Shown one piece after another: positions 1,946 through 62,467 of a DNA stretch of 64,000 nt. Under the pieces are notes generated by a model. It saw only the letters and a list, made by a program, of their open reading frames with translations, was not told the origin of the DNA and searched no databases. The position numbers and the translations under genes are program-made. The stretch is from positions 1-64,000 of the forward strand of contig NZ_RDSD01000018.1 of the NCBI RefSeq assembly GCF_003712195.1, in the 5' to 3' direction. Position 1 is the stretch's first letter. Every line of letters starts with the position of its first letter. The DNA is from Proteiniphilum sp. X52 (GTDB lineage: Bacteria > Bacteroidota > Bacteroidia > Bacteroidales > Dysgonomonadaceae).

Positions 1946-2181
1946 TAAACTGTGGTTTAATGTATTTTAATATGATTTATCGGGTGATTTTGATATAATC
2001 TGTCAGGTGATTTTGATTCTTTTTGACAACAATACTGCGCTAGAGGTGAAAAGTAGACTCTTTTCTGGAAGCATAATTCTCATGCTCGTTTCATCCTTGT
2101 AGGATTGTCAGTAGTTATGCCCCTATTTTCCGGATGGGAAACTATTTCCCCCTCGATCCATCTATAAATCGATATTTTGTA

Positions 2182-2811: not shown

Positions 2812-2863
2812 TTTTCATTTTTTTTTGAGAAAATGGGTATAAAAAATTATTCCGTTTGTATAT

Positions 2864-3059
2864 ATAGAAACGAGCATGATAACTGTTCTCACACAAGAGC
2901 ATGATTAAAAGCGAGTTCCATACACCGACAAGAAAAAAATAAAATAATCGTATGAAACGAGCATGATAATCATTATCACAGAAGATCATGACTAAAGCGA
3001 TGTTGCCTCCGGTTTTGATATCAATGGAAGTCGGCGATTTCGCTTCGCTCAATTCCATA
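2864..3059 (+). repeat. Start-codon palindromic repeats, two tandem units
   Basis: Two units of the family lie between the sigma and FecR genes. Unit 1 spans 2864-2922: GAAACGAGC ... GCGAGTTCCATA around a GTTCTCACACAAGAGC hairpin. Unit 2 spans 2951-3059 and carries about 50 extra bases, including a GAAGTCGGCG stretch that resembles the 29-bp repeats at 32675. The unit starts are 87 bases apart. Each unit is followed after about 30 A-rich bases by ATGAAA: first the start of unit 2, then the ATG at 3091, which opens a 10-codon frame overlapping the FecR start. Confidence 0.7.
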
Positions 3060-3110
3060 TGACAACATTGAAAATAAATATTTTTAGTCAGATGAAAACA
3101 GACGGGATAA

Positions 3111-4301
3111 ATGCAGGCAGATAAATATATAAACTATACGGCGACAGATTTCCTCAAAGACAAGGATTTTATCAGGTGGCAGTTCTTAAGTGGTGAAGAA
3201 GACATGCTGTTTTGGAACGATGTTGTTGAAAAATATCCGTTTCTGACATTGCCGATAGAGGAGGCTATTATCCTGTATAAGGAGAACATCCGGTTCAATG
3301 ATTTCAGCATGTCCGATCCGGAAATATCGGCGTGCATCATTTCATTACAAAACCAGATTCGTCTTAAAAAGAAAAGAAGAAACTCAAAGCGTATTGTTTT
3401 GAGTATATCCGCCATAGCCGCGAGTGTTGCCATCATCCTATCCCTACCGCTTCTCTTCAACAAAAACAATAACGTGCAGGATATTTCCACCTTTGCCCGG
3501 GCATTACCTGACAGGAACGATTTCTATTCATCCGACACTAAACTGATCCTGTCGGAAAACAATACTGTCGCTTTAAATAACAAAGAATCTTCCATCCAAT
3601 ACGAAGAAGATGGGATAAAAGCTGACGACAACCTTATCCTAAAGGAAGAGTCGGCGCCTTATAACCAGTTGATCACACCTTATGGCAAACGCTCCGTCAT
3701 AACTTTCTCCGACGGGACAAAAGCATGGGTTAATGCGGGCAGCAGGCTTGTGTATCCTGCCGAATTCAGCAAAGGAAAAAGGGAGATCCATGTGGATGGG
3801 GAGATCTATATAGAAGTTGCCGAAGACAAGAAACGCCCGTTTGTGATAAAAACGAGGCAGGTGGATATCGAGGTATTGGGTACGAAGTTCAATGTGTCGG
3901 CATATCAAGCCGATAAAACAAATAGTGTTGTACTCTTATCCGGCTCGGTAAGCATTTCCTCCAACTCCCGGAAAAATAGTATCATCCTGAAACCGGATCA
4001 GATGTATTCCGATACCGGGGGGAGCCATACCGTTGAAAACGTGGATGCCGGCATCTATGTGTTATGGACACAAGGATTATATCAATTCGAAAGCGAGAAA
4101 TTGACTAATATCGTCACCCGCCTTGAGCGCTATTACGGCATACCGATCGAATGTGATGCCGCCTTGGCGGGCTTGAATTGTTCCGGAAAACTCGACCTGA
4201 AAGACGACATGAACAAATTGCTGGAGGAACTATCCCGCGCGTTACCCATAACGTGTCGGAAAAACACCGATGGGAGTTATGCGATAAGCGCGATATCCTG
4301 A
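3111..4301 (+). CDS. FecR-family anti-sigma factor
   Basis: This 396-residue inner-membrane regulator has a cytoplasmic N-terminus (about 1-95) that would bind the sigma factor. One membrane helix follows at about 96-113 (IVLSISAIAASVAIILSLPL). The periplasmic FecR domain is at about 190-300, with LITPYGKRSVITFSDGTKAW, NAGSRLVYP and VLGTKFNVSAY. A C-terminal DUF4974-type domain (about 325-396) receives the signal from the receptor's STN domain. It sits between its sigma factor and the SusC receptor, the usual order for trans-envelope signalling. The start at 3111 is slightly uncertain because the upstream region consists of repeats and an overlapping small frame. Confidence 0.92.
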   Translation: MQADKYINYTATDFLKDKDFIRWQFLSGEEDMLFWNDVVEKYPFLTLPIEEAIILYKENIRFNDFSMSDPEISACIISLQNQIRLKKKRRNSKRIVLSISAIAASVAIILSLPLLFNKNNNVQDISTFARALPDRNDFYSSDTKLILSENNTVALNNKESSIQYEEDGIKADDNLILKEESAPYNQLITPYGKRSVITFSDGTKAWVNAGSRLVYPAEFSKGKREIHVDGEIYIEVAEDKKRPFVIKTRQVDIEVLGTKFNVSAYQADKTNSVVLLSGSVSISSNSRKNSIILKPDQMYSDTGGSHTVENVDAGIYVLWTQGLYQFESEKLTNIVTRLERYYGIPIECDAALAGLNCSGKLDLKDDMNKLLEELSRALPITCRKNTDGSYAISAIS

Positions 4302-28602: not shown

Positions 28603-30891
28603 TTAAAAGTTGAGTGAAGGGGGAATAGAATCATCCGAAGAGGCCCATTGTTTGTTAGGTGTATTTCCCATTTCAAAGATTAGTTTGCCACCACGGATAA
28701 TATCATTGTGGTGAATATAACTTTTATTATAAGGCTCTCCATTGAATGTGGCAGATTGAATGTAAATATTTTCCTTATTGAAATTATCCGCCTGAATGAT
28801 AAACTTCTTACCATCCTCCATCGTTATTGAACTTTTTTCAAACGACGGACTTCCTATTACATAATAAGGCGTTCCCGGACAAACAGGATAAAACCCCAGC
28901 ATACTAAATACCAGCCATGCGGACATCTGTCCGGCATCTTCATTACCGGATAATCCATCTGGACTTATAAGATATTCATTTTCAATGATTTCGTGGATCC
29001 ATTTTTGAGTTTTCCAAGGTTCCTGCACATATGCATAAAGATAAGCAATATGATGTCCGGGCTCATTTCCATGCCAATAATGACCACCTTCGAAAAATTT
29101 GTCGAGTTGGTTTGTAAATCGTTTTTTTCCTCCTATATGGTCTATAAGACCTGCCACATCCTGCGGTACATACCATGTGTAATGATAGGGTGTTCCTTCA
29201 CAGATAAACGGGGCGAAGGCAAAAGGGTTGAAAGGTTCGATCCAACGTCCGTCACTATGGCGACCGCGGGCATATCCTGTTTCAGGATCAATTACATTTT
29301 TGTAATTAAGCGCCCTTTCTTTAAGTTGAGTGTAATCATTTGCCTTATTTAATTTTTTAGCCACTTGTGATAAGACAAAGTCATCATAAGCATATTCCAA
29401 TGTTCTTGATACCTGTTCTTGTTTATGGAATGCGTCTTTTACCGGATCTTCCAGGGGTATGTAATTATGTTTCAGATAGGATTCCATTGCCCGTCTGCCT
29501 TTTCCATCGCGGTAACTTGTTGAATCTGTATTAATGTCAAAAGCATTTTTGCGCATAACCTCATATGCTTCTTCATAATCAAATCCGGGTGTGTCTTTTA
29601 TGATGGCATCACCAATCATAGAAATGCAATGATCACCAATCATGGCGGCTGTATAGCTATTCCATGACGGAAAGATAGGCAGCCATCCGCCTTGCTTGGC
29701 TTTCAGAACAAGAGAATTGGCCATGTGTCCGTTACGGGTTGGATGAAGGAGGGAAAATAATGGATGTACGGCACGATAAGTGTCCCATTGTGAAAAATCG
29801 CAATAATACTCCCCATCTTCTATCGTCAAAATCGATTCTGCGCCATCAAATTTCGGGTAAGTCCCATCGACATCACTAAATACGCGTGGAAGAAAATGAG
29901 TTTCATATAAAGCGGTGTAAAATTTTATTTTATTCTCGTGAATGTTGCTTTCTATTTCAATTTTCCCTAATGTTTTATTCCAAATATCTGAAGATTGCTG
30001 CCTGACACTATTAAAATCCCAATGCGGAATTTCAGCCTGGAGATTTTTTCTCGCATTTTCAATATTGGTAAAAGATGTTCCGATCTTTACTCCGATTTTT
30101 TTTGATTTTGAGGTGGAGAGCTTAATCCATGCTCCAATAGGATAATCATCTCCCTTGGCTTCCCTTTTTCCTTTATGACTATTTTTCCCCTCCCATATTC
30201 CGAACTCTTCAATATCATCATTCAACTGGATTACAAAGTGACCCGAAAAACCAGCGGGCATACCATATCCCTGATATATCCTGTGAACCGGGTTATATCC
30301 TATAATTTCTTTTTTCTCAGGATTTATTTTGATATAAGCTAATCCCTCATCACTGTTGGGTTCAATAACAATATAATGGTTTCCTTCTTGCCTGAAGTCA
30401 AATTGCATAATTCCGGAACGCGATAATCCTGTGATTTCTGCTTTAATATTATAATCTTTCAGCTCTACAGAATAATACGAGGGAGTAGCAGTTTCATCTT
30501 CATGTGAGAAAGCCGATGCTCGTGCGGCCGGATCAAGTTCAAGAATATTATTCAGGGGCATAATGGTTACGCTTCCATAATCCTGGGTACAAGATCCATT
30601 CATCCAGTGACTGGCTCTGAAGCCCTGGAAATGGGATTGAAAATAATAATAGGGTGGATGGCATTTCTGTTCCGTTGCCTGCGTTTGAGCAACCCAGTTT
30701 GTCATTGCGTGAGGAACTCCCACCGCAGGAGTTACCTGCCCTCGTTCCTCGGTAGAATTTTTATCTTTTCCCTCTACAACTCTTGCATCTGTTCCGATAA
30801 GCGGATTTACATAATTTTCAAATTGTTGAGAATTTGAAAACTGTGAAATGGATAAATAAAAGATTGCTATAAATAAGATTCTTATTTTCAT
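28603..30891 (-). CDS. GH92 alpha-mannosidase of the mannan SusCD locus
   Basis: The 762-residue enzyme has a signal peptide (MKIRILFIAIFYLSISQFSNS). The beta-sandwich (ENYVNPLIGTDARVVEGKDK, GVPHAMTNWVAQTQAT) is followed by the catalytic barrel: WDTYRAVHPLFSLLHPTRNG, the Glu in CEGTPYHYTWYVPQDVAG, and GNEDAGQMSAWLVFSMLGFY. It is the last gene of the sigma/FecR/SusC/SusD/GH92 set and points to alpha-mannan or high-mannose N-glycans as substrate. A palindromic repeat lies 20 bases upstream of its start. It differs strongly from the other GH92 in this window. Confidence 0.95.
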   Translation of the reverse strand: MKIRILFIAIFYLSISQFSNSQQFENYVNPLIGTDARVVEGKDKNSTEERGQVTPAVGVPHAMTNWVAQTQATEQKCHPPYYYFQSHFQGFRASHWMNGSCTQDYGSVTIMPLNNILELDPAARASAFSHEDETATPSYYSVELKDYNIKAEITGLSRSGIMQFDFRQEGNHYIVIEPNSDEGLAYIKINPEKKEIIGYNPVHRIYQGYGMPAGFSGHFVIQLNDDIEEFGIWEGKNSHKGKREAKGDDYPIGAWIKLSTSKSKKIGVKIGTSFTNIENARKNLQAEIPHWDFNSVRQQSSDIWNKTLGKIEIESNIHENKIKFYTALYETHFLPRVFSDVDGTYPKFDGAESILTIEDGEYYCDFSQWDTYRAVHPLFSLLHPTRNGHMANSLVLKAKQGGWLPIFPSWNSYTAAMIGDHCISMIGDAIIKDTPGFDYEEAYEVMRKNAFDINTDSTSYRDGKGRRAMESYLKHNYIPLEDPVKDAFHKQEQVSRTLEYAYDDFVLSQVAKKLNKANDYTQLKERALNYKNVIDPETGYARGRHSDGRWIEPFNPFAFAPFICEGTPYHYTWYVPQDVAGLIDHIGGKKRFTNQLDKFFEGGHYWHGNEPGHHIAYLYAYVQEPWKTQKWIHEIIENEYLISPDGLSGNEDAGQMSAWLVFSMLGFYPVCPGTPYYVIGSPSFEKSSITMEDGKKFIIQADNFNKENIYIQSATFNGEPYNKSYIHHNDIIRGGKLIFEMGNTPNKQWASSDDSIPPSLNF

Positions 30892-30911
30892 GTGATTATT
30901 TTATTTCGGCA

Positions 30912-30985
30912 TATGGAATTTTTGATTTGCAAAATATTCATTCCCTTGGGGTGTGTAATGATTCTTGTAAACATTTCGGTTTCAT
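30912..30985 (-). repeat. Start-codon palindromic repeat before GH92
   Basis: Read on the minus strand it begins ATGAAACCGA-like sequence and ends ATTCCATA, with inner arms TTTACAAGAATCATT and ATGAATATTTTGCAAA. The ATG of the GH92 gene follows after 20 A-rich bases. The rest of the gap up to 31115 is AT-rich and otherwise featureless. Confidence 0.7.
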
Positions 30986-31115
30986 TTAATTATAATGAAT
31001 TTATGATCAATTCTATTCAGGAGAAATTGCCAATATAGTTAATTATTGGCAATTTCTGCCGTATTATTTGGTGAAGATAGAAAATATGGCGGATATGACT
31101 AATAAAAAAATACTA

Positions 31116-32600
31116 TTATTTAGGTTCTATTCTATAATCATTTTGAGTTAACTTAGGATTTACATCAATCTGTTTTTGAGGAATTGGGCAAATAAGATTT
31201 GTTTCATTTAAGGAAAAACCTTTACTCTTCATTACTTCAACAGCCCGACCAGTCCGGATTAAGTCGAACCAGCGATGGTTCTCAAAAGCTAATTCCACCC
31301 GGCGTTCTTGTTCAATCAACAAAATGAATTCTTCCTTGCTGGCCGTATATAAATCTACAGGACTAGATTCTGTCGTCTGGTAACCAAATCCGCGTCTTCT
31401 GGTCATATTCAGATAATTGCACGCCTGGGCGGTTTTTCCATTCATATTAAGAGCTTCTGCATACATTAATACCACATCAGAATATCGTATTACAGGATAA
31501 TTGTTGCTTGCATCGTTATTCTGATAAGGGACATCCATGAATTTGCTGATATAACGGGAGTCTACCCACTCACCGTCCTTGCGGTTATCATAATACCCTA
31601 AAGCCATTGAAAAATCGCGACGCAAATCACCTTCCTCAAAAGCATTATAAATATCCATTTCCGGGATATTATTTCCTCCGGTACTTCCTACTGCAACAAC
31701 ATTCGTCCCGGAGTTCTCAGGAGCAAAATTATTGGCAAAGTTTGAACCTTCACCGTATCCTCCTTTCAGATATTGTATCTCAAACACACCTTCTCTGCTG
31801 TTATGATTTACAGGACTAAAAACACTTTTGTATCCGTCGATATTCAGGCTGCCGGCTGTATTTTCCAAAAGGGCATAGATGCCACTATTTATCACTTCAC
31901 CCAAAACTAACTCTGCTTCTTCATATCGGTGTAAAGTCAGGTAAATCTCTCCTAAAAGAGCTTTGGCCGCACCTTTTGTGGCACGTCCGCTTTCTTCCGG
32001 AGGATAAGAATCGGAAAGATTTTGTGCCGCTTCTTTTAAGTCTGCAATTATTTGATTATAAATATTCTCTTTCAAATCCCTTGAATAATCATAGGCTTCA
32101 CTAATGGTTATTTCTTTTAGTACAAGTGGGACATCTCCATACACACGAACAAGATTGAAATACATCAATGAACGAATAAATTTACACTCTAACTTATATT
32201 GTGTTGCAAGTGCTTCATTCATATCAATACCATCAATTCTTCCCAGTACCGTATTGGCCCTGTTGATCACATTGTAGGCTGCAGCCCAAAAACTGCTTAT
32301 ATAACTATTTTGGGTGTCAATATAGAACTGATCGAATTCATTTTGACTAGTAACTGAACCGGAAAGTTGGTTGCGTGTGTTGTCAGAAGGAATTTCAGCA
32401 AACACGTACCAATTACCATAAATATCCGATTCTTGTAATCCGGAATAAATCCCATTTACTGCGGATGTTATATCATCGGCGGTCTTATAGAAATCATTTT
32501 CACTTAAATCTGTTAAAGGATTCAATTCTAAAAAATCACTGCAAGACCACAACAAGAAAATTGTCAGGACAAAGTTTAGAATAGTATATTTTAGTTTCAT
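31116..32600 (-). CDS. SusD/RagB glycan-binding lipoprotein
   Basis: The 494-residue surface lipoprotein has the signal TILNFVLTIFLLWSC with the lipobox cysteine near residue 20. Family segments are NVINRANTVLGRIDGID, YKLECKFIRSLMYFNLVRVY, GDVPLVL, TKGAAKALLGEIYLTLHRYE and the C-terminal LLIEQERRVELAFENHRWFD with LICPIPQKQIDVNPKLTQN. It acts with the SusC receptor encoded upstream. The intergenic region between them is unusually long (282 bases) and filled with repeats, so expression of SusC and SusD may not be tightly coupled. Confidence 0.95.
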   Translation of the reverse strand: MKLKYTILNFVLTIFLLWSCSDFLELNPLTDLSENDFYKTADDITSAVNGIYSGLQESDIYGNWYVFAEIPSDNTRNQLSGSVTSQNEFDQFYIDTQNSYISSFWAAAYNVINRANTVLGRIDGIDMNEALATQYKLECKFIRSLMYFNLVRVYGDVPLVLKEITISEAYDYSRDLKENIYNQIIADLKEAAQNLSDSYPPEESGRATKGAAKALLGEIYLTLHRYEEAELVLGEVINSGIYALLENTAGSLNIDGYKSVFSPVNHNSREGVFEIQYLKGGYGEGSNFANNFAPENSGTNVVAVGSTGGNNIPEMDIYNAFEEGDLRRDFSMALGYYDNRKDGEWVDSRYISKFMDVPYQNNDASNNYPVIRYSDVVLMYAEALNMNGKTAQACNYLNMTRRRGFGYQTTESSPVDLYTASKEEFILLIEQERRVELAFENHRWFDLIRTGRAVEVMKSKGFSLNETNLICPIPQKQIDVNPKLTQNDYRIEPK

Positions 32601-32629
32601 ATGAATTATTTTATTGTTTTATTTCGGTA

Positions 32630-32870
32630 TATGGAACCTTTGATGTGCAAAATATTCACTAAAGTTAGATATTTGAGTCGCCTTCGCTCCTCGATTTTCA
32701 ATTGAGTCGCCTTCGCTCCTCGATTTTCAATTGAGTCGCCTTCGCTCCTCGATTTTCAATTCCTCGCTATGGCATAGTCCAAACAAGTTTGTCCTTTGCT
32801 CATTGAACTTATCGGAAATACTCATTCCCTTGGGATGTGTAATGATTCTTGTAAACATGTCGGTTTCATA
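32630..32870 (-). repeat. Start-codon palindromic repeat split by an insertion
   Basis: The outer arms of the family are at 32630-32659 (TATGGAACCTTTGATG) and 32820-32870 (ending CGGTTTCATA), matching the intact copy at 30912-30985. About 160 bases have entered between them: three 29-bp repeats and a degenerate ACTATTTC-type element (32760-32821) with CCAAACAAGTTTGTC. The SusD ATG lies 29 bases past the outer arm. Confidence 0.65.
32675..32761. repeat. Three 29-bp tandem repeats
   Basis: GAGTCGCCTTCGCTCCTCGA plus TTTTCAATT is repeated three times without a base change (32675-32703, 32704-32732, 32733-32761) and without spacers. A related sequence occurs once at about 3027-3053. Perfect identity suggests recent expansion. 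Confidence 0.9.
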
Positions 32871-32882
32871 TTCCATGAACTT

Positions 32883-35800
32883 TTAGAATGTTAAATTAAT
32901 TCCAAGCATGTAAGTGCGGTATAATGGATACATACCGTAATCAGTTCCCGGAGCTGTCACATTATCTTCCCTAAAACTTGTTTCAGGATTATAACCGCTA
33001 TAATTGGTTATGGTAAAAAGATTTTGTGCTGCAATATATATTCTCGTGTGCTGTAAATGATATTTTTTTGTAACTAAAGAAGGAAGAGTATAACCAAAAG
33101 AAAGGTTATTTAATCTAAGGAAACTTCCATCTTCAACCCAGCGGGAGGAAATGGCATTATTTTGACCGGTTGGCTGTGAATTGGCCCTGGGAATTAATCC
33201 ATTACCAGGATTGCTCACGGATTGCCAGCGATTAAGCATTTCCCGCAACTGATTTTGATTTCCCTCACCCTGAGTATAAAAACGCCGTCCTAAGTGTAAC
33301 ACCTCATTTCCTACCACGCCTTGTAATGAGAAACTTGCATCGAAATTACCAAAAGAGAAGCTATTTATTAATCCCCAAGTGAAATCAGGCATATTATTGC
33401 CCAGGATTGTTCTGTCATCGGCATTCATTTCGCCATCTTCATTCACATCCTCAAATTTGACATCTCCCACCCGTGTATTCGAAAAATGAGGATATTTATC
33501 CAACTCTTCCTCAGTCATGAAAATACCAATCATCCTGTATCCGTAAAAAGCACCAATAGGTTTGCCAATCATGGTAATATGAGTAGTTCCTGCGCCTCCA
33601 TCGCCAAAGACAGGATCTCCTGTCGGACCTAAGGCTAATACTTTGTTTCTGTTAATAGATAAATTTCCAGAAATATCCCATGTGAAGTCTCTGGAATTGA
33701 AAGGAATTCCTGTGACAGTGATTTCAACCCCTCTATTTCTCATTTTACCGATGTTTTGCATTGCATTGCTGAATCCTGTAATGGTGGGGATATCAACATT
33801 CATCAGCAAATCTGTGGTTAACCGGTTGTAATAGTCGACAAATAAAGACAACCGGTTATTGAAAGTCGATACATCTATTCCGATATCTGTTTGACGGGTC
33901 TTTTCCCATGTCAAATCAAGATTTGAGAAACTTCTTTTTGAAGCTCCATTCACAATATTTCCCGTCCCTGTTCCCAAAACATAATTTGAGTTTTGCATTA
34001 TACCTATCGCTGCATAATCTCCAATATTATTGTTACCGGTAGTACCATAACTCGCGCGTATTTTCAAATCTGTCAACCAACTTGCATCTTTCATGAAATT
34101 CTCCTGAGAAATTCTCCATGCAACTGATGCGGAAGGGAAATATCCATATCTGTTGTTACTTCCAAATCTGGAAGAACCATCAGCACGAATTGACGCGGTG
34201 AAATAGTATTTATTATCATACCGATAATTTGCGCGGGCTAAATAAGAGAGTAATGTCCAGGAAGCACGGGATGAGGTGCTACTTTTTACTGTAGCATTAT
34301 TAATCGTCTGAATCTTATCGTTAGGGAAATCAGAACCGTTTGCCTGTGTGTATCTGTATAGATTTTTCTGGGCGGTGATTCCAGCAAGGGCATCAACTTC
34401 ATGTTTATCCCAGTTGCCGAAATAGGTGATTGTGTTTTCGTTCAACCAGTTGAGGGTCTCGTATGAAGTTTCAGTGGCACTCCTTTTGGTAGAAGGCAAT
34501 GGGGCTATATTACCATTGTCGGGAATAGTGGATGGCCTAAAGTATTCATTCCTGTATTCCCTGATATCTGTCCCGATTGTTGATTTGATTTGTAAATTTT
34601 TCAAGGGACTAATTTCGACATATCCGTTTGTAAATAAACTTAAATTTGTATTATAATTACGTATGTGCGTTAATGCAACGGCGTTTGGTACTCCGGTCAA
34701 TCCGTCACTTGCTACTGCATACATCGCTTGTGATGCCCAACTCCCGTCTTCATTTCTCACGGGTACGGCGGGGCTTGTCGCCAAGGCGGCATTCACAACT
34801 CCATCACTGGCCCAATGTCCTTGTGTTGTCTTATTTGCATTATTATATGAGGGCGCCACATTAATACCCACTTTCAGCCAGTTATTTAATTCACTGTCAA
34901 TTTTTGCCCTTGCCGAGTACCGTTTGTAATTACTATTGATAATAATACCTTCCTGATCAAAATACCCAAGTGAAAATAAGAATTTTGATTTTTCACTTCC
35001 TCCGGATACGGAGAGTTGATAATTCTGGACAGGTGATGTTCTGAATATTTCATCTTGCCAATCAGTCCCCGCTCCTAATGAAGCAACATACGAGGCATCG
35101 TCATAGAAAGCAGGATATCTATAACGATATCCGGAAGGACGACTCCCCACCGGATCATTAATTGAGGCATTGGGGAAATCATCAAGATAGTGATTGTTGA
35201 ATGCTTCACGGCTAAATTCAATAAATTCTTGGGCATCCATCAAGTCCAGTTTTTTTGTTACATCCTGCATCCCCCAATACATATCGAGTGATACGTTTGT
35301 ACGACCCTGTTTTCCTGATTTTGTGGTGACGAGAACAACTCCATTTGCTGCCCGTGAACCATAAATTGCCGCTGCGGATGCATCTTTTAAGACTTCGATT
35401 GATTCGATGTCATTGGGATTTACCATATTTAAATTTTGTTCTCCAAGCGGATACCCGTCAACTACATACAGAGGCGCGCTGGATGCGGTGATTGAACCGG
35501 AACCCCTAACTCTTATGGTGGCGGATTGACCAGGCTGTCCCCCTACTTGCTGTATCTGTACTCCGGCTAATTTTCCAGCCATCGCTTCAGTTGGATGAGA
35601 GACTCTCAAATCTTTAAATGATTTATTGCCCAATTGTGCCACCGAACCTGTTAAATCCTTTTTTCTTACAATACCATACCCAATGACAACTAATTCCTCA
35701 AGAGATTCCATATCCTCCTGTAATACAATATTTATGGTTGTTTTGCCTACAGAGGAGACATCTTGTGTTACGTACCCGATATACGAAATACGAAGGGTGG

Positions 35801-36341
35801 CATCTTCTTCCACACTTAACGAAAAGTTTCCATCTACATCGGTTACGGTACCATTGGTTGTGCTTTGTTCCACAATATTGGCACCGATAATCGGCTCTCC
35901 TTGCACATCGGTAACTTTTCCCGTAATTGTCTTCTTTGTCTGTTGTTGAGGTTGAAGCGATCGAGCCGGGGCCATTTCCTTCCGTTTATTGATCAGGATA
36001 TACCGGTCGTTGATCTTGTATTCATAGATAGCGGGAAGCGCTTGCTCCAACACAGTTTTAATGTCTGCATTTTTTGCTTTGACACTCACTTTCACCGATG
36101 TGTTTACCTGATCGTTGTTATAGAAGAATTCAAATTCGCTTTGCCGGCGGATAGCATCGAAGACCTCTTCCAGTTCCACATTCCTGAGATCCAGATCCAA
36201 CGATGTAATCTGGGCGTAGGTCTGTCCGGCCCACACTAAATTGGAACTCAACAGCAAAAAGAAAAAAACCAGTTTCATGATACAAAATAGTTTTTTTAAT
36301 TCCCGCAGGGGGAATTTTTGTTTAAGTCTCTTTTTTTTCAT
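32883..36341 (-). CDS. SusC/RagA TonB-dependent receptor of the mannan locus
   Basis: This 1152-residue outer-membrane receptor has a signal peptide (LVFFFLLLSSNLVWAGQTYAQ) and an STN domain (about 48-118: SLDLDLRNVELEEVFDAIRR). A carboxypeptidase-like beta-sandwich (KTITGKVTDVQGEPIIGANI), the plug (EELVVIGYGIVRKKDLTGSV, DASAAAIYGSRAANGVVLVT) and the barrel follow. The STN domain and the adjacent FecR/sigma genes show a signalling receptor. The likely cargo is mannose-containing oligosaccharide, inferred from the GH92 gene. Its ATG lies 28 bases downstream of a palindromic repeat with a perfect 15-bp inner stem. Confidence 0.95.
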   Translation of the reverse strand: MKKKRLKQKFPLRELKKLFCIMKLVFFFLLLSSNLVWAGQTYAQITSLDLDLRNVELEEVFDAIRRQSEFEFFYNNDQVNTSVKVSVKAKNADIKTVLEQALPAIYEYKINDRYILINKRKEMAPARSLQPQQQTKKTITGKVTDVQGEPIIGANIVEQSTTNGTVTDVDGNFSLSVEEDATLRISYIGYVTQDVSSVGKTTINIVLQEDMESLEELVVIGYGIVRKKDLTGSVAQLGNKSFKDLRVSHPTEAMAGKLAGVQIQQVGGQPGQSATIRVRGSGSITASSAPLYVVDGYPLGEQNLNMVNPNDIESIEVLKDASAAAIYGSRAANGVVLVTTKSGKQGRTNVSLDMYWGMQDVTKKLDLMDAQEFIEFSREAFNNHYLDDFPNASINDPVGSRPSGYRYRYPAFYDDASYVASLGAGTDWQDEIFRTSPVQNYQLSVSGGSEKSKFLFSLGYFDQEGIIINSNYKRYSARAKIDSELNNWLKVGINVAPSYNNANKTTQGHWASDGVVNAALATSPAVPVRNEDGSWASQAMYAVASDGLTGVPNAVALTHIRNYNTNLSLFTNGYVEISPLKNLQIKSTIGTDIREYRNEYFRPSTIPDNGNIAPLPSTKRSATETSYETLNWLNENTITYFGNWDKHEVDALAGITAQKNLYRYTQANGSDFPNDKIQTINNATVKSSTSSRASWTLLSYLARANYRYDNKYYFTASIRADGSSRFGSNNRYGYFPSASVAWRISQENFMKDASWLTDLKIRASYGTTGNNNIGDYAAIGIMQNSNYVLGTGTGNIVNGASKRSFSNLDLTWEKTRQTDIGIDVSTFNNRLSLFVDYYNRLTTDLLMNVDIPTITGFSNAMQNIGKMRNRGVEITVTGIPFNSRDFTWDISGNLSINRNKVLALGPTGDPVFGDGGAGTTHITMIGKPIGAFYGYRMIGIFMTEEELDKYPHFSNTRVGDVKFEDVNEDGEMNADDRTILGNNMPDFTWGLINSFSFGNFDASFSLQGVVGNEVLHLGRRFYTQGEGNQNQLREMLNRWQSVSNPGNGLIPRANSQPTGQNNAISSRWVEDGSFLRLNNLSFGYTLPSLVTKKYHLQHTRIYIAAQNLFTITNYSGYNPETSFREDNVTAPGTDYGMYPLYRTYMLGINLTF

Positions 36342-36369
36342 ACGATTAATTAATTTTTTCTTGTGGGTG

Positions 36370-36444
36370 TATGGAACCTTTGATATTTAAAATAATCCTT
36401 TCCTTCGGATGTTGAATGATTATTTTAAATATGTCGGTTTCATA
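36370..36444 (-). repeat. Start-codon palindromic repeat before SusC
   Basis: The outer arms TATGGAACC and GGTTTCATA (plus strand) enclose a perfect 15-bp inverted repeat, ATATTTAAAATAATC (36383-36397) and GATTATTTTAAATAT (36418-36432). On plus-strand RNA the outer arms pair completely with one G-U; on minus-strand RNA there is one A-C mismatch. The SusC ATG follows after 28 bases. Confidence 0.8.
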
Positions 36445-36513
36445 CATTTGAGCGCTTTAAATGAATTGTTGATTGATAATTTTAAAAAGGTAACAGTTTT
36501 TTTAATGCACCAC

Positions 36514-36542
36514 ACTGCCCGAAAGGCCTAAGATCGGACAGT
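36514..36542. terminator. Hairpin between FecR and SusC genes
   Basis: ACTGCCCGA aaggcctaaga TCGGACAGT forms a 9-bp stem just after the FecR stop. The T-rich tail (CTTTTAT) is on the plus-strand side, so minus-strand termination is not assured. It may separate FecR from SusC expression. Confidence 0.4.
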
Positions 36543-36550
36543 CTTTTATC

Positions 36551-37717
36551 TTATTTGTACAGGATTATTTTATCTCCTTCAGATTTGTATTGGATATCTG
36601 TAACCGCCTGTATCTGATCCAGCAGATAATTAAGCGGCCTTGCTTTCTCGGCGCTTCCGGTAAACCGCATTTTCCCTATCTCCGGGCTTTCATAGATGAT
36701 CCTGAAGTCATACCATCTTTCCAATTGGGCAAATATTTCGGTTAAGGGCTGGTTCCTGAACACGAACTCTCCTTTTACCCAGGCTGTGTAAATATCCGTA
36801 TTTACCTGCCGGACGGATATTTCGTCGGATGATTTATCCAGCCGGAAATTGTGCGCGGGTTGTAGCAAAAAGGGTTCCTGGTTTTCAGGCAAACGGATAC
36901 GGATGCTGCCTTCCACTAAGGTGGCATTGACATACGGATTTGTCTGGTATGCGTTGATATTGAACGAGGTTCCCATCACTTCGATAGTAAGATCCGGAGT
37001 CTGTATAATAAATGGTTTCCCGTCTTTTTTGACTTCAAAATAAGCTTCGCCCGACAACTCCACGTGGCGGGTGTCCCCTTCAAAATAAGAGGGAAATGTC
37101 AATTGCGACTCTGAATTAAGAAAGACTTTAGATCCATCTGACAATATCAGTTCATATTCACCGCATTTAGGTACATATATTGTTTGGTGTTCTATTCTCT
37201 TTTTAAAAGGTGTTGTCTTTTGGAAACTTATAACCCCTTCGCTATTATTTGAAATAATGGTGCCATCCTCTTTTCTCACTTCAAAAGATTCGGACAGGTC
37301 GATCTTTTCACCTTGCATTGAGAGAAGATATGCTTTTTTAGACCCAGGATCAAAAATATTTTTTTCCACTTTTTTGGGGAGCCTGTCTTCCTGAAAGCTG
37401 AAATAATTTAGTGCCATAATAAATAGCGCGATGACTGCGGCAGAAGAAACAGCGTATTTAAACCCTTTTTTTTGATATAAGGGCGTTTTCCTCTCGATAT
37501 TCAGGCAGAGCTTACCGGAAATAGTATTGAAAACCTTATCCTTATCAAATAGTTCGTCATTTTCTCTTCCTTCTTTTAATGATCGGTAAAGCTTTCTGTT
37601 TTCTGTATCTTCATTAAGCCAATGTTGAAAATGTCTGTCATCTTCAGGTATCTCTTCACTTAATACCTTTAATAACAGTTTCCATTTATCAATGACGTTT
37701 TTTTCTATCTTCAACAT
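36551..37717 (-). CDS. FecR-family anti-sigma factor
   Basis: The 388-residue regulator has a cytoplasmic N-terminus (HFQHWLNEDTENRKLYRSLK) and one membrane helix at about 87-106 (FKYAVSSAAVIALFIMALNY). The periplasmic FecR domain spans about 180-290 (VPKCGEYELILSDGSKVFLN, ESQLTFPSYFEGDTRHVELS, GEAYFEVKKDGKPF, VMGTSFNINAY). A DUF4974-like C-terminal domain (TEIFAQLERWYDFRIIYE) would touch the receptor's STN domain. It transmits receptor occupancy to the sigma factor encoded 64 bases upstream. Confidence 0.93.
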   Translation of the reverse strand: MLKIEKNVIDKWKLLLKVLSEEIPEDDRHFQHWLNEDTENRKLYRSLKEGRENDELFDKDKVFNTISGKLCLNIERKTPLYQKKGFKYAVSSAAVIALFIMALNYFSFQEDRLPKKVEKNIFDPGSKKAYLLSMQGEKIDLSESFEVRKEDGTIISNNSEGVISFQKTTPFKKRIEHQTIYVPKCGEYELILSDGSKVFLNSESQLTFPSYFEGDTRHVELSGEAYFEVKKDGKPFIIQTPDLTIEVMGTSFNINAYQTNPYVNATLVEGSIRIRLPENQEPFLLQPAHNFRLDKSSDEISVRQVNTDIYTAWVKGEFVFRNQPLTEIFAQLERWYDFRIIYESPEIGKMRFTGSAEKARPLNYLLDQIQAVTDIQYKSEGDKIILYK

Positions 37718-37781
37718 ATTGCTTGCTTGTTTACCCTATAACACAACGATTTTTAAAAAGTATTATTTACATCCCGAATCT

Positions 37782-38303
37782 TTATCCTATTTTTTCTTTT
37801 AAAATCCGATAAGCCTTGGATACCTGCACTTTAACAGTATTGACGGAGATGCCCAACAAATCGGCCACCTCGACGTATTTCTTCTTTTCCAGGGTTGTCA
37901 TCACAAATATTTTTTTGCATCTGTCCGGTAATTCGTCAATGGCTTTCAGGAGTAACCTTTTCAATTCTTCAATATCTTCGTCGTGCACATCGTCGTCAAT
38001 CAGATCTATTGTGATTTCATAACCGTACACGAAACGTTTATTATCCCTGAGGTAATTCAATGACGCGTTGAAAACGGATTTATAAGCGTAGGCTTTAAAA
38101 GAACATTTGTCAGGTAGTATATCCCTCTTTTCCCAGCAACGGATAAAAAAATCCTGTACGATATCGGCCGATGCCGGGGAGTCGCCGGTTATGTTGTATG
38201 CCCAGACGAAAAGCCTGTCGCTATAGCGATAGAAGATCTTCTTAAAGGCTTCTTCATCACCGGTCTTTAATTTTTTTATCAACTTGTTCTCTTCGTTTTT
38301 CAT
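37782..38303 (-). CDS. ECF sigma factor of the mannan locus
   Basis: The 173-residue ECF sigma factor has region 2 (KTGDEEAFKKIFYRYSDRLF, SADIVQDFFIRCWEKRD) and region 4 (LPDRCKKIFVMTTLEKKKYV, EVADLLGISVNTVKVQVSKA). It would be released by the adjacent FecR protein when the SusC receptor binds ligand. It heads the sigma-FecR-SusC-SusD-GH92 run. Two tandem palindromic units lie directly before its ATG, the nearer one 31 bases away. Unlike the sigma at 2221 it has no hydrophobic tail. Confidence 0.93.
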   Translation of the reverse strand: MKNEENKLIKKLKTGDEEAFKKIFYRYSDRLFVWAYNITGDSPASADIVQDFFIRCWEKRDILPDKCSFKAYAYKSVFNASLNYLRDNKRFVYGYEITIDLIDDDVHDEDIEELKRLLLKAIDELPDRCKKIFVMTTLEKKKYVEVADLLGISVNTVKVQVSKAYRILKEKIG

Positions 38304-38334
38304 ACGATTAAAATTATTTATTTTAAAGGTATCG

Positions 38335-38481
38335 TATGGAACTCGCTTTTAATCGTGTTCTTGTGTGAGAACAATTATCATGCTCGTTTCATATGACTAA
38401 AATATTTATTCTCAAAGGTATCGTATGGAGCTCGCTTTGATCATGTTTTTGTGAACGAACAATTCTAGTGCTCGTTTCATA
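38335..38481 (-). repeat. Start-codon palindromic repeats, two tandem units
   Basis: Unit 1 (38335-38393) and unit 2 (38424-38481) begin 89 bases apart. Each has TATGGA(A/G)CTCGC at one end and GCTCGTTTCATA at the other, with an inner hairpin (GTTCT-CACACA-AGAAC in unit 1, minus strand). The spacers are alike (AAAGGTATCG). Together with 2864-3059 they form the GAAACGAGC subgroup, tied to sigma genes in both loci. The remaining gap up to 38755 shows only a short remnant at about 38600-38615. Confidence 0.75.
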
Positions 38482-38755
38482 GATACTTTCCGCAAAAGAT
38501 ATGTAAAAGGAAACACGGGTAGAAGTGAAAAGTGTTATTTTAAAATTAAATTTAACGTTTTTTAGGTGGTGGGGTGTTCCAGAGGCTTGGAACAATGTAG
38601 CATGTTCGTTTCAAAATGTCCGGAGCGGTAAATGATTATCCGGCCAAAATTTTGACTTTTCTTATGTGATCTATTAGGGTTTCATTCCCCGCTAGTTCTT
38701 TTCCAGATTACATCATCGTTTTTGAATAAATCCAGCCCTCATTGTTTGATAATTT

Positions 38756-38948
38756 AGAAGCTGTTTTGAATTTTTTCATCCATTGTTTTTTAGCCATTTT
38801 TTGATGGATTTGGATTTTCATTGATTGAAATGTGGCGGGCCACTTAAAAGAAATGAAAGTTCAAAGGCGCGAAAAAGGGCAAAAAACAAGATGAAAGAGT
38901 CGAAAAATAAGCGTAAAATAATTATTCGTAAAATTCAAAACAGTTTCT
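38756..38948. mobile_element. 193-bp MITE-like element (copy 1)
   Basis: The element has 19-bp terminal inverted repeats, AGAAGCTGTTTTGAATTTT and AGAAACTGTTTTGAATTTT, one base apart. It has no coding frame. A second copy at 49888-50080 has the same length and differs at about four positions. It lies immediately downstream of aroB (20 bases from its stop). A clear target-site duplication is not visible. Confidence 0.8.
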
Positions 38949-38968
38949 TAAATTAAAATCAGGGATCA

Positions 38969-43020: not shown

Positions 43021-43034
43021 AAAGCTCTCTACTT

Positions 43035-43275
43035 GAACTTGGAACTTGGAACTTGGAACTTGGAACTTAGAACTTGGAACTTAGAACTTAGAACTTGGAA
43101 CTTGGAACTTGGAACCGGGAACTGGAAAGTGAAGAAATTTAAAAGTCTTGGTTCTTGGCTCTTGGTTCTTGGTTCTTGACTCTTGGCTCTTTGCTCTAAT
43201 ATTTACTTTCACTTTTAGATTCCCACTTTTCCATCTTTCCATCTTTCCACCTTTCCACCATTTCACCATTTCACC
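43035..43275. repeat. Short tandem repeat arrays (7, 7 and 8 bp)
   Basis: Eleven GAACTT(G/A) heptads run from 43035 to 43111. A second stretch (about 43146-43193) repeats TCTTGGY-like heptads. A third (about 43228-43275) repeats eight-base CATCTTTC/CACCATTT units. The arrays fill the gap between the 5'-nucleotidase domain gene and the GH3 gene. Confidence 0.85.
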
Positions 43276-48326: not shown

Positions 48327-48348
48327 TTACGACAAAAATGTCGTAAAT
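48325..48348. promoter_or_regulatory. Perfect palindrome, likely former Rrf2 operator
   Basis: ATTTACGACA-AAAA-TGTCGTAAAT has perfect 10-bp arms. It directly abuts the broken end of the Rrf2 remnant and shares TTTACGACA with the palindrome at 48016-48041. It may be the autoregulatory operator left after deletion of the N-terminal coding part. Confidence 0.45.
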
Positions 48349-48369
48349 ATTTTTATAATCCTGAATTTT

Positions 48370-48516
48370 TCCCTCTTCCCTCTTCATTCTTCCCTCTTCA
48401 TTCTTCCCTCTTCACTTTTCATTCTTCATTCTTCATTCTTCATTCTTCATTTTTCATTTTTCATTTTTCATTCTTCACTTTTCATTCTTCATTCTTCACT
48501 TTTCATTCTTCACTTC
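48370..48516. repeat. Heptanucleotide repeat array
   Basis: About 147 bases made of roughly twenty CTTCATT-like heptads (variants CTTCCCT, TTTCATT, CTTCACT). The apparent plus-strand coding frame across it is a product of the repeat (Phe-, Ser- and His-rich) and is not counted as a gene. Confidence 0.9.
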
Positions 48517-48668
48517 AAAAAGTCTTGATTCCTGATTCAGGGCTCTATAGCCAATAAATATTTAATAAAACATAAAAGCAGGGCTTTTTCAAACAATAGG
48601 ATTGAAAAACTGTTCTTATGTAGAATTGTTCTAATTATTAAAGGATACACAAAGACATATTTATAGAG

Positions 48669-49883: not shown

Positions 49884-49887
49884 TTTT

Positions 49888-50080
49888 AGAAGCTGTTTTG
49901 AATTTTTTCATCGATTGTTTTTTAGCCATTTTTTGATGGATTTGGATTTTCATTGATTGAAATGTGGCGGGCCACTTAAAAGAAATGAAAGTTCAAAGGC
50001 GCGAAAAAGGGCAAAAAACAAAATGAAAGAGTGGAAAAATAAGCGTAAAATAATTACTCGTAAAATTCAAAACAGTTTCT
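49888..50080. mobile_element. 193-bp MITE-like element (copy 2)
   Basis: Same length and inverted ends as copy 1 at 38756-38948 (AGAAGCTGTTTTGAATTTT / AGAAACTGTTTTGAATTTT), about 98% identical. It sits between the E1alpha and E1beta genes and stretches their gap to 283 bases, while the other operon gaps are 9 and 33 bases. It shows no coding frame. Confidence 0.8.
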
Positions 50081-50166
50081 TACAATGGACCCCAATAAAA
50101 ATGACAGTATGCGGAGACTTCATCGTCTTTGTCGCTTATACAAAATAACAACAGCAGAAAAAACAG

Positions 50167-56958: not shown

Positions 56959-57077
56959 TTACTTTTACTTTAAATTTTAGGATGGACAACGCGACTTGCA
57001 TCGTGCATCGTTAATGAGTGAAATAAAAAAGGGGATTTGTGAAGATGTATACCAGAAAAACCACGAAGTGTGGACTA

Positions 57078-57158
57078 TTATTCCCTACGCCGGCATTACC
57101 CGGATCAGGTGATTTGGGTATGATCTCAGCCCGTTTACTTGGGCACCCCCTGTCGAAT
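57078..57158 (-). promoter_or_regulatory. TPP riboswitch
   Basis: On the minus strand the core reads GGGGGTGCCC, GGGCTGAGATCATACCC, CCTGATCCGGGTAATGCC and GGCGTAGGGAA, the conserved THI-box elements in order. It binds thiamine pyrophosphate and would switch off the receptor/PnuT operon when the cofactor is plentiful. The 119 bases between it and the receptor ATG hold the expression platform; no strong T-tailed hairpin is apparent, so control of translation is more likely than termination. Confidence 0.97.
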
Positions 57159-57165
57159 GAGTAAA

Positions 57166-60967: not shown

Positions 60968-62317
60968 TTATTCTGTGGACAACGACTCTCCCAGCAATGT
61001 GGCGGGTGTAAAGCCGGTTATTCTCACCTTCACGAATTCTCCGATGCGGTGTTTTTTCTTGTCAAAAATAACTACCTTATTCTGGTCGGTACGGCCGAAG
61101 AGTTGTTCCCGGGAGCGCTTGGAGAATCCTTCCGTGAGTACCTCGAATTCCTTGCCCAGATCCTTTTCGTTGCTTTGCCGCGACAATTCCATTTGCAGGT
61201 CGATAATTTCTTGCAGACGTCTGCTTTTGACCTCTTCCGGCACATTGTCTTCCAATCTTTTTGCAGCGTAAGTGCCCGGTCGCTCCGAATATTTGAACAT
61301 GAAAGCCGAATCGAATCCCACTTCGCGCATCATGGAGAGTGTCTCCTGATGGTCTTCTTCCGTTTCGGAATGGAATCCGCACATGATGTCGGTGGAAAGT
61401 CCGCAACCGGGGATGATCCGTTTGATGGCTGCGATCCTGTCCATGTACCACTCCCTGTCGTATCTTCTGTTCATCAGTTTCATCATCCTTGAACTTCCCG
61501 ATTGTACGGGAAGGTGGATGTAGTTGCAGATGTTTTGGTATTGGGCGATGGTCTCCAGCGTTTTATCGGTCATGTCCCGTGGATGGGATGTGGTGAAACG
61601 GATCCGCATCCCGGGAGCGGCTTCAGCGACCATGACGAGCAGTGCGGGGAAATCGATCTTTCTGTCACTGTCCATAAAACGGTAGGAGTTCACATTCTGC
61701 CCCAATAGGGTCACTTCCCTGAATCCCTTTTCGCGCATGACGCGTAACTCGTTGAGGATACTCTCCGGCTCGCGGCTGCGCTCCCGCCCGCGGGTAAAGG
61801 GGACAATGCAGTAAGTGCAGAATTTGTCACATCCGCGCATGATGGAAATATATCCGGAGATGTTGCTCCCGTTCAATTTCAAGGGGATCACATCTTTGTA
61901 TGTCTCTGTCTTTGACAGTTGGATGTTGATGGCTTTCTCACCTCTTTCGGCCGCCCCCACTAAATTGGGAAGGTCGAGATAGGCATCGGGCCCTACCACC
62001 AGGTCGACATCATGATCGTCGATCAGGTCCGATTTTACCCTTTCGGCCATACATCCCAATACACCTACGATAAGAGGAGCCTTCCGTTTCCTTTTCAAGG
62101 CATTGAAATATTCCAGTCGCTGCACTACTCGCTGTTCTGCGTTATCCCTTATGGAACAGGTGTTCACGAAAATGGCGTCAGCGTCGCGGTCATTGTCGGT
62201 CAGCCGATAGCCATCCATCTCCATGATTGAGGCAACCACTTCCGTGTCCGCCACGTTCATTTGACAACCATAAGTCTCTATAAATAGTTTTTTTTCTTTT
62301 ACTTCGTTCGGATTCAT
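60968..62317 (-). CDS. miaB: tRNA-2-methylthio-N6-dimethylallyladenosine synthase
   Basis: From MNPNEVKEKKLFIETYGCQM the enzyme has 449 residues. The UPF0004 domain contributes three cluster cysteines (GCQMN, NTCSIRDNAEQ, GVLGCMAERVK). The radical-SAM domain carries CDKFCTYCIVPFTRGRERSR, and a TRAM domain (about 385-447) ends the protein. It methylthiolates i6A37 in tRNAs reading UNN codons. The 26 in-frame codons upstream fall within a palindromic repeat and its spacer and are not counted. Confidence 0.96.
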   Translation of the reverse strand: MNPNEVKEKKLFIETYGCQMNVADTEVVASIMEMDGYRLTDNDRDADAIFVNTCSIRDNAEQRVVQRLEYFNALKRKRKAPLIVGVLGCMAERVKSDLIDDHDVDLVVGPDAYLDLPNLVGAAERGEKAINIQLSKTETYKDVIPLKLNGSNISGYISIMRGCDKFCTYCIVPFTRGRERSREPESILNELRVMREKGFREVTLLGQNVNSYRFMDSDRKIDFPALLVMVAEAAPGMRIRFTTSHPRDMTDKTLETIAQYQNICNYIHLPVQSGSSRMMKLMNRRYDREWYMDRIAAIKRIIPGCGLSTDIMCGFHSETEEDHQETLSMMREVGFDSAFMFKYSERPGTYAAKRLEDNVPEEVKSRRLQEIIDLQMELSRQSNEKDLGKEFEVLTEGFSKRSREQLFGRTDQNKVVIFDKKKHRIGEFVKVRITGFTPATLLGESLSTE

Positions 62318-62344
62318 ACGATATTTTATTTTCTCATTTCGCTG

Positions 62345-62370
62345 TATGGAACCTTCATTCGCGGTTTCAT
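62345..62370 (-). repeat. Minimal start-codon palindromic repeat before miaB
   Basis: TATGGAACC ... GGTTTCAT on the plus strand keeps only the outer arms of the family, with eight bases between them. The miaB ATG follows after 27 A/T-rich bases ending ATCGT, as in the longer copies. It shows the repeat is not limited to SusCD loci. Confidence 0.6.
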
Positions 62371-62467
62371 CACTTATTCCTAAACTGTGAGGCATGTCAT
62401 AAAACTCCCGGAAAAGTTAAAATGTCAAATTATCGACAAAAAAGTTGCAATATTCTATTTTTCATGC

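Follow-up and report, generated by a model that had tools for sequence, protein, structure and literature searches.

The DNA stretch analysed here, hereafter the window, comprises 64,000 nucleotides of Proteiniphilum sp. X52 (assembly GCF_003712195.1, contig NZ_RDSD01000018.1, positions 1 to 64,000 of the forward strand). It carries copies of a short structured repeat, several of which stand directly before start codons. On the minus strand, copies precede the starts of GH92 (30891), SusD (32600), SusC (36341), a sigma factor (38303, behind a tandem pair) and miaB (62315). The identities of the window genes were assigned by Pfam. An initial annotation, made from the sequence, had described these repeats and offered two readings, a shared post-transcriptional switch or a mobile element bringing a translation start region with it. 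We find the second much the better explanation. The repeat is very probably a small mobile element of Bacteroidota, structured and non-autonomous, with TATGAA as its insertion target. Two main cores, A and B, are found in the X52 genome. The copies in the window and the features that belong to them are as follows.

30889..30986, minus strand: element copy, core A, at the GH92 start codon, with left end AATGAAAC and right end CATGAAA (sequence and covariance-model match)
32598..32870, minus strand: element copy, core A, at the SusD start codon, its hairpin split by a nested repeat
32658..32817 (approximate, ends by eye), minus strand: second repeat family, about 150 bases, nested in the SusD copy
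36339..36444, minus strand: element copy, core A, at the SusC start codon; the site is empty in five of five relatives
38301..38393, minus strand: element copy 2, core B/C, at the sigma-factor start codon
38387..38481, minus strand: element copy 1, in tandem, upstream of copy 2 at the sigma-factor gene
62315..62371, minus strand: copy of the element lacking the hairpin loop, at the start codon of miaB; the site is empty in relative G007
2863..2957, plus strand: element copy, core B, first of a tandem pair, with altered left end
2951..3097, plus strand: element copy, core B, second of the pair, with the 3' part of the hairpin altered, upstream of a FecR gene
2081..2094, minus strand: left-end remnant ATGAAACGAGCATG

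Each unit runs from TATGAAAC through a structured core to the segment GTTCCATAY (the GTTCCATA segment), and from there through an A-rich tail and an R to TATGAA. Units measure about 92-110 bases. Those with core A span 106-110 bases counted to TATGAA (nine intact, non-nested copies in alignment A1), and those with core B span 92-95 bases (14 copies in alignment A2). Tandem copies are joined through a common TATGAA. The tail is A-rich, as are the left flanks, and 86% of units have C at position -3. GTTCCATAY is complementary to both the left and the right TATGAA, and its Y covaries with the R of the right end; cleavage at these sites is our conjecture. By eye, the miaB, SusC and sigma-factor loci have no inverted repeats at the element ends beyond the duplicated bases. 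On re-reading the sequence, all copies listed in the initial annotation were present with the ends and spacing it gave, and several details needed correction. The spacer belongs to the unit, because its R-TATGAA end repeats the unit's own beginning. Left ends are inexact in some copies (AATGAAAC at GH92, GATGAAAC at miaB and TATAGAAAC in the first plus-strand copy). The true start of miaB is the ATG at 62315; a longer open reading frame (ORF) continues upstream across the element to 62395, and most miaB homologues align only from about residue 22-27 of that longer ORF.

The second plus-strand copy ends in GATGAAA, which opens a frame of only 10 codons; the FecR ORF begins at 3111 and uses a different frame (region 3092-3111). 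A different FecR gene (L337) begins with MKTD exactly at an element end. A small indel may have uncoupled the right end of the plus-strand copy from the ORF at 3111. The repeat nested in the SusD copy is composed of the palindromes CTATGGCATAG and CAAACAAGTTTG and a 29-base unit present three times. Members of this nested family are also found inside several other element hairpins of the genome. By eye, the nested repeat resembles palindromes that flank TnpA genes of subclass 2.6.

The repeats are real and far above chance in number. The whole-genome motif and covariance-model search proposed with the initial annotation finds many copies. The pattern GTTCCATA-N20-50-TATGAA has 48 genome matches against one for the reversed pattern; three of the 48 (C5:126326, C11:82385 and C55:163292) were read as chance and left out of the own-genome count. 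At E<=0.01, covariance models R1 and R2 gave 62 and 37 matches in the same genome, some of them common to both, antisense or partial. The three lists merge into 99 distinct 3' ends, one of which lacks sequence. Tail-less matches (halves around nested inserts, antisense and partial matches) were left out and the other right ends were assigned to classes by hand. These 78 right ends with a tail comprise 11 that lead into a tandem copy, 48 at start codons of ORFs of at least 58 amino acids, four in another repeat family and 15 other or decayed. Thirteen of the 15 lie outside ORFs of at least 100 amino acids; one of the remaining two falls 60 bases within an ORF, counted from its 5' end, whose frame extends back into the element, and the other in an opposite-strand ORF.

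Evidence of movement comes from orthologous starts, which at SusC, the sigma factor and miaB occur both with and without the element. Six relatives were searched with the SusC/sigma locus; five yielded the SusC start and three the sigma-factor start. The SusC start is filled in X52 and empty in all five relatives (G007, G011, G014, G021 and G026), with near-identical flanks. In the empty flank TATGAAAAAAAAG is preceded by CTCAAA and two further bases, and in X52 the element sits between two copies of TATGAA. The sigma-factor start has no unit in G021, one in G014, one damaged unit in G007 and two in X52. Among 30 miaB loci the start is filled in three (X52, G014 and G021), intact and empty in G007, and altered in G011; a script check found no element at the remaining 25, including L314, whose upstream sequence extends over only 112 bases. 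In the filled miaB copies the hairpin loop is gone and the tail is kept. TATGAA stands at both junctions after insertion and is the duplicated sequence at miaB, SusC and the sigma factor. The native leader and the old start codon remain upstream of the inserted unit, and the right TATGAA leads into the native codons. Judged from these comparisons, insertion is shown to leave TATGAA at both ends, and the reading frame of the gene is preserved after the new leader. In 110 of 123 units the short frame opened by the old upstream start codon terminates ahead of the new one, about as expected for AT-rich sequence by a rough estimate. The ORFs started by the element are heterogeneous (40 of the 43 outside the window were run through Pfam, one of them without a family, in addition to five in the window). 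Host genes include SusC/SusD, glycosidases, superoxide dismutase, MlaE, glutamate dehydrogenase and phosphoglycerate mutase. Empty and filled orthologous starts, TATGAA at both ends, zero, one or two units at a single start, mixed host genes and copies inside another repeat together support the proposal of a mobile element that supplies a start region.

The placement of copies at start codons can be compared with that of TATGAA itself. The background sample consists of the window and 20 stretches of the G014 genome (224,020 bases, simple ORF calls), from which 12 element-derived TATGAA sites were set aside. Of the native sites, 135 are in coding sequence, 32 are start-like and 16 lie elsewhere, at least one of the 16 (window position 32600) being the reverse strand of an element end. 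The start-like share of native non-coding TATGAA is therefore 32/48 (67%). Non-tandem element ends in the X52 genome are start-like in 48 of 67 cases (72%; Fisher p 0.68 against the background). Surviving copies probably seem placed before starts because non-coding TATGAA is mostly a start codon and because coding insertions are lost by selection or avoided. The TATGAA target and the scarcity of copies in coding sequence largely account for the start-codon placement, and a modest additional preference of the element for starts is possible. The conditions that the initial annotation named as refuting give a mixed outcome: base-pair covariation is strong, and copies are non-randomly placed relative to starts, yet this placement is largely due to the target and to scarcity in coding sequence.

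Base-pair covariation between copies is strong and involves four helices, one of them a pseudoknot. It was assessed in an alignment of 68 diverse units (A3), from which units more than 86% similar to one already included were dropped. The matches L207 and L199 were left out of A3 and of the start-class, upstream-frame and folding counts. Strong mutual information is found between columns 87-120, 9-78, 54-117, 55-116, 57-114, 18-36 and 12-76. The helices are an outer hairpin (P1), a 5' hairpin (P2), a pseudoknot (P3) and a stem over the start codon (P4). P3 pairs the internal ATGATTAT with ATAATCR of the tail, directly before the right TATGAA (51-57 with 114-120), and P4 pairs CCATAYG with CRTATG, spanning the start codon. 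The columns were chosen on the same alignment in which covariation was later counted. P1, P2 and P3 together score 0.231 against a shuffled mean of 0.104, with none of 500 shuffles as high, and slid controls give 0.050-0.076; 80.7% of cells are paired and 141 cells have changes on both sides against 57.9 when shuffled. P2 with P4 scores 0.282 against 0.112 (0/500; slid controls 0.019-0.095). The shuffles do not preserve relatedness, whereas the slid controls do. Pairs with changes on both sides number 3/11 in P1, 5/5 in P2, 6/7 in P3 and 2/6 in P4, the support for P1 coming from its inner pairs only. Counted over the whole structure, such pairs do not exceed the shuffles (14 vs 12.4, reached in 75/500, and 7 vs 6.6, reached in 313/500). 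The pair with the highest mutual information, 87-120, is C-G in 44 units and T-A in 20, hence Watson-Crick in 64 of 68 with no G-T; over all 125 units it is Watson-Crick in 119, again with no G-T. In 123 units the inner helix has a mean of 5.07 against 3.97 for shuffled sequences (maximum 4.24 of 200), and tail-core complementarity is 5.59 against 4.67 (maximum 4.92 of 200). P1 and P4 are mutually exclusive because both use the GTTCCATA segment, which can therefore hold either end.

These structures could also be those of a cis-regulatory RNA, a translational switch of a regulon that spread because it regulates its genes. Many copies end exactly at start codons, and a covarying pseudoknot (51-57 with 114-120) lies just upstream of the start next to a stem that covers it. 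In a folding model without pseudoknots the predicted probability that the start codon is unpaired is 0.26 when the element is present, compared with 0.42 for the empty form made by joining the flanks (n=88, paired p about 4e-5). The wider region from -15 to +12 is predicted to be no less open with the element (0.56 vs 0.54), and the predicted minimum-energy fold of core A leaves the start codon free (L030). Excerpts of one study state that Bacteroidota lack Shine-Dalgarno sequences and that A at -3 favours initiation in Flavobacterium (PMC6847099). The tail is not an optimised leader, because 86% of units have C at that position. A regulon also fits poorly with an element that is present or absent at orthologous starts inside one genus, with host genes that have no common function, with copies inside another repeat and at non-starts, and with the deleted hairpin loop at miaB. 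The element has no Rfam match above the gathering score in the window and 10 related loci, the Bacteroides-2 and GUCCY-hairpin motifs not having been compared; both are among the Bacteroidetes motifs, some of them outside Rfam, named in an excerpt of a candidate-RNA list (PMC2864571). We consider the regulon quite unlikely. The shared post-transcriptional switch of the initial annotation is unsupported as a cause of the distribution, given presence and absence at orthologous starts and mixed genes, and a side effect of the element on translation is plausible, as one stem covers the start codon.

Two other explanations accept that the unit moves and differ in how. Integron cassettes move by way of a folded single-stranded site on which a tyrosine recombinase acts. 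A cassette-like element of this kind would account for the identical short core at both junctions, for the tandem arrays and for a folded site with a conserved A-C mismatch, seen in the alignments of cores A and B. The ends do not match the integron core-site consensus. Clustering of 726 neighbouring ORFs from 119 loci gave 16 clusters present in at least three loci, none of them recombinase-like by eye (first residues, no Pfam check), and recombinase families were not searched for in the genomes. Such a cassette is unlikely. A repetitive extragenic palindromic (REP) element moved by a Y1 (HUH, RAYT) transposase, as in other bacteria, is very unlikely, even though the unit is a hairpin repeat with a fixed end sequence and subclass 2.6 TnpA genes of Bacteroidetes are reported, in the part of PMC6006769 available to us, to have atypical flanking structures. 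A search of 25 genomes for Y1_Tnp was positive in 12, namely in 11 of the 12 element-bearing genomes outside the genus and in one of 13 genus relatives. The other 12 genus relatives have no match (E<=0.001), including the one-contig G014 genome with 43 R2 matches; the positive one, G017, has two broken copies. X52 has a single fragment covering 50 of 121 profile positions, where the longest ORF from a start codon has 71 amino acids. Among the 30 of 54 Y1 loci that were examined, only two have an R2 match, each at least 0.8 kb from the gene and not flanking it. Four genes resembling subclass 2.6 TnpA have, by eye, other palindromes at their flanks. RAYT/REPtron was rejected as the direct partner: the genus genomes tested have either no Y1 gene or a broken one, and in the Y1 loci examined elsewhere the gene does not flank the element.

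Covariance model R2 matched 37 of 61 genomes, among them 33 of the 37 genomes of the genus (X52 included). An exact pattern scan of named genomes gave at least 119 stretches. The matches listed include Labilibaculum, Draconibacterium, Carboxylicivirga, Marinilabilia, Parabacteroides, Proteiniphilum, Paludibacter and many metagenome-assembled genomes of Bacteroidota, as well as single stretches labelled Saprospiraceae and Flavobacteriales. In the NCBI taxonomy Proteiniphilum belongs to Bacteroidales and Labilibaculum to Marinilabiliales. The pattern is loose and some matches are chance by estimate; L207 was dropped for this reason. To judge from the matching sequences, relatives of the element occur in many Bacteroidota. 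Chryseobacterium piscicola carries, in tandem, a 54-base short form without the inner domain, with only P1 and P4 by eye (L199:2324-2431). In a phylum-wide sample of 395 genomes, only five others of which belong to the same order, the full exact pattern was found in X52 alone, and a possible short form was found in one genome (L376) against one control match in another, which is chance level by count. One B unit (L003, 95 bases), the only one used, had no blastn match in plasmid and phage collections. Seven pattern matches in viral contigs (L255-L261) show no tail features on inspection by eye and were discounted as chance. On these results a phage or plasmid origin was rejected. Replication-strand bias could not be assessed in G014, where the GC skew of 20 stretches was too noisy to locate the origin or terminus.

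A further repeat family, an imperfect palindrome of about 200 bases, is found in the window at 38753-38950 and 49885-50082, and its core motif at 38 places in the genome. It looks like a miniature inverted-repeat transposable element (MITE) with a 19-codon frame. The palindrome has a TATGAAA-like site and harbours some element copies. Among the X52 copies examined, five of 23 sites with an ATGAAA core are filled (one of the five being GATGAAA) and 18 are empty, whereas none of eight TAGGAAA sites is filled. Elsewhere in the window, seven-base tandem tracts of the GAACTTG and TTCTTCA type lie between predicted ORFs at 43021-43190 and 48344-48546, and a thiamine pyrophosphate riboswitch match, just above the gathering score, lies on the minus strand at 57064-57160.

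Several points weigh against a TATGAA-specific mobile element. No mobilising enzyme was found, Y1_Tnp being the only family searched for. The strictness of the target is weakly tested, as the difference between 5/23 and 0/8 in the palindrome family is too small for evidence, and two of the filled copies there (L053 and L055) have variants in common and could stem from a single insertion that was copied together with its host. The ends of the element are ambiguous by six bases. Non-tandem ends pooled over several genomes are start-like in 90 of 110 cases (82%), against 32/48 in the background (Fisher p 0.04). Outside the genus, R2 matched only four of 24 genomes from other families of the order, and more weakly. 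Finally, TATGAAAC, GTTCCATA and TATGAA are fixed by the search pattern, and pairs that involve them are invariant by construction.

With the mobile-element reading, a mechanism can be proposed. On insertion the downstream copy of TATGAA becomes the start codon, and the leader just before it is replaced. Insertions in coding sequence would be lost by selection or avoided. The element strand would fold as a hairpin with a pseudoknot, and GTTCCATAY would pair in turn with the left and the right TATGAA and so present both ends. An endonuclease or recombinase might then act in trans on single-stranded DNA, cleaving and rejoining it. We infer this single-strand movement by analogy with IS200/IS605. 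In mRNA, P4 pairing would cover the start codon, and translation would be lowered or tuned until the hairpin decays, as at miaB. Insertion probably lowers or tunes translation, as far as the predicted folds tell. It is a tentative and rather doubtful suggestion that the units form a new class of mobile element, combining a single-strand two-state guide, whose fold directs insertion at start codons, with a travelling translation switch and moved by an enzyme that is neither Y1 nor a known recombinase of this kind. The element would be a natural means of replacing 5' leaders in many Bacteroidota genes, polysaccharide-utilisation genes included, with reading frames kept. It also points to a mobilising enzyme. 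Pairs of empty and filled sites offer a test of how translation starts in Bacteroidota without Shine-Dalgarno sequences. There is also a warning here, that a conserved, strongly covarying structure close to starts can stem from a mobile element and not from a regulon.

Among known systems, cis-regulatory RNAs that cover start codons, such as riboswitches and ribosomal-protein leaders, likewise have a covarying pseudoknot just before the start. Unlike these, the present element is polymorphic by insertion, lacks an Rfam match and has heterogeneous host genes. No earlier description of it was found in the open-licence literature searched. The nearest published statement, in the available part of PMC6006769, is that on atypical structures flanking Bacteroidetes TnpA genes of subclass 2.6. 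The same part describes the REP foot as a GT[AG]G tetranucleotide and says that classes 2.6 and 3 lack it (PMC6006769). Our element lacks this foot and has TATGAAAC in its place in alignments A1-A3, a sequence that in A3 is prescribed by the search pattern. Like REP/RAYT systems, the units are short, chromosomal, multi-copy palindromic repeats that are non-autonomous and form tandem combinations. They differ from them in having no GTAG-type foot, a TATGAA target that is often a start codon, a pseudoknot, and a tail, rich in A, that brings a new start; no adjacent Y1 gene was seen. In IS200/IS605-type elements, guide sequences recognise both cleavage sites on single-stranded DNA. Their non-autonomous derivatives share with our element a fixed short target, an internal sequence complementary to the ends and folded ends. 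Unlike them, it has a single internal segment with complementarity to both ends and the same site on the left and on the right, and no intact Y1 transposase was found in the genus genomes tested. A classical MITE is a derivative of a DDE transposon with terminal inverted repeats and a target duplication of variable sequence. Small non-autonomous repeats of this type are described in Bacteroidota, for example in Porphyromonas gingivalis (excerpt of PMC4596501), and our element resembles them in size and dependence. In contrast to MITEs, no terminal inverted repeats were seen in it outside the duplicated bases, and the sequence duplicated at the three loci compared is not arbitrary but TATGAA.

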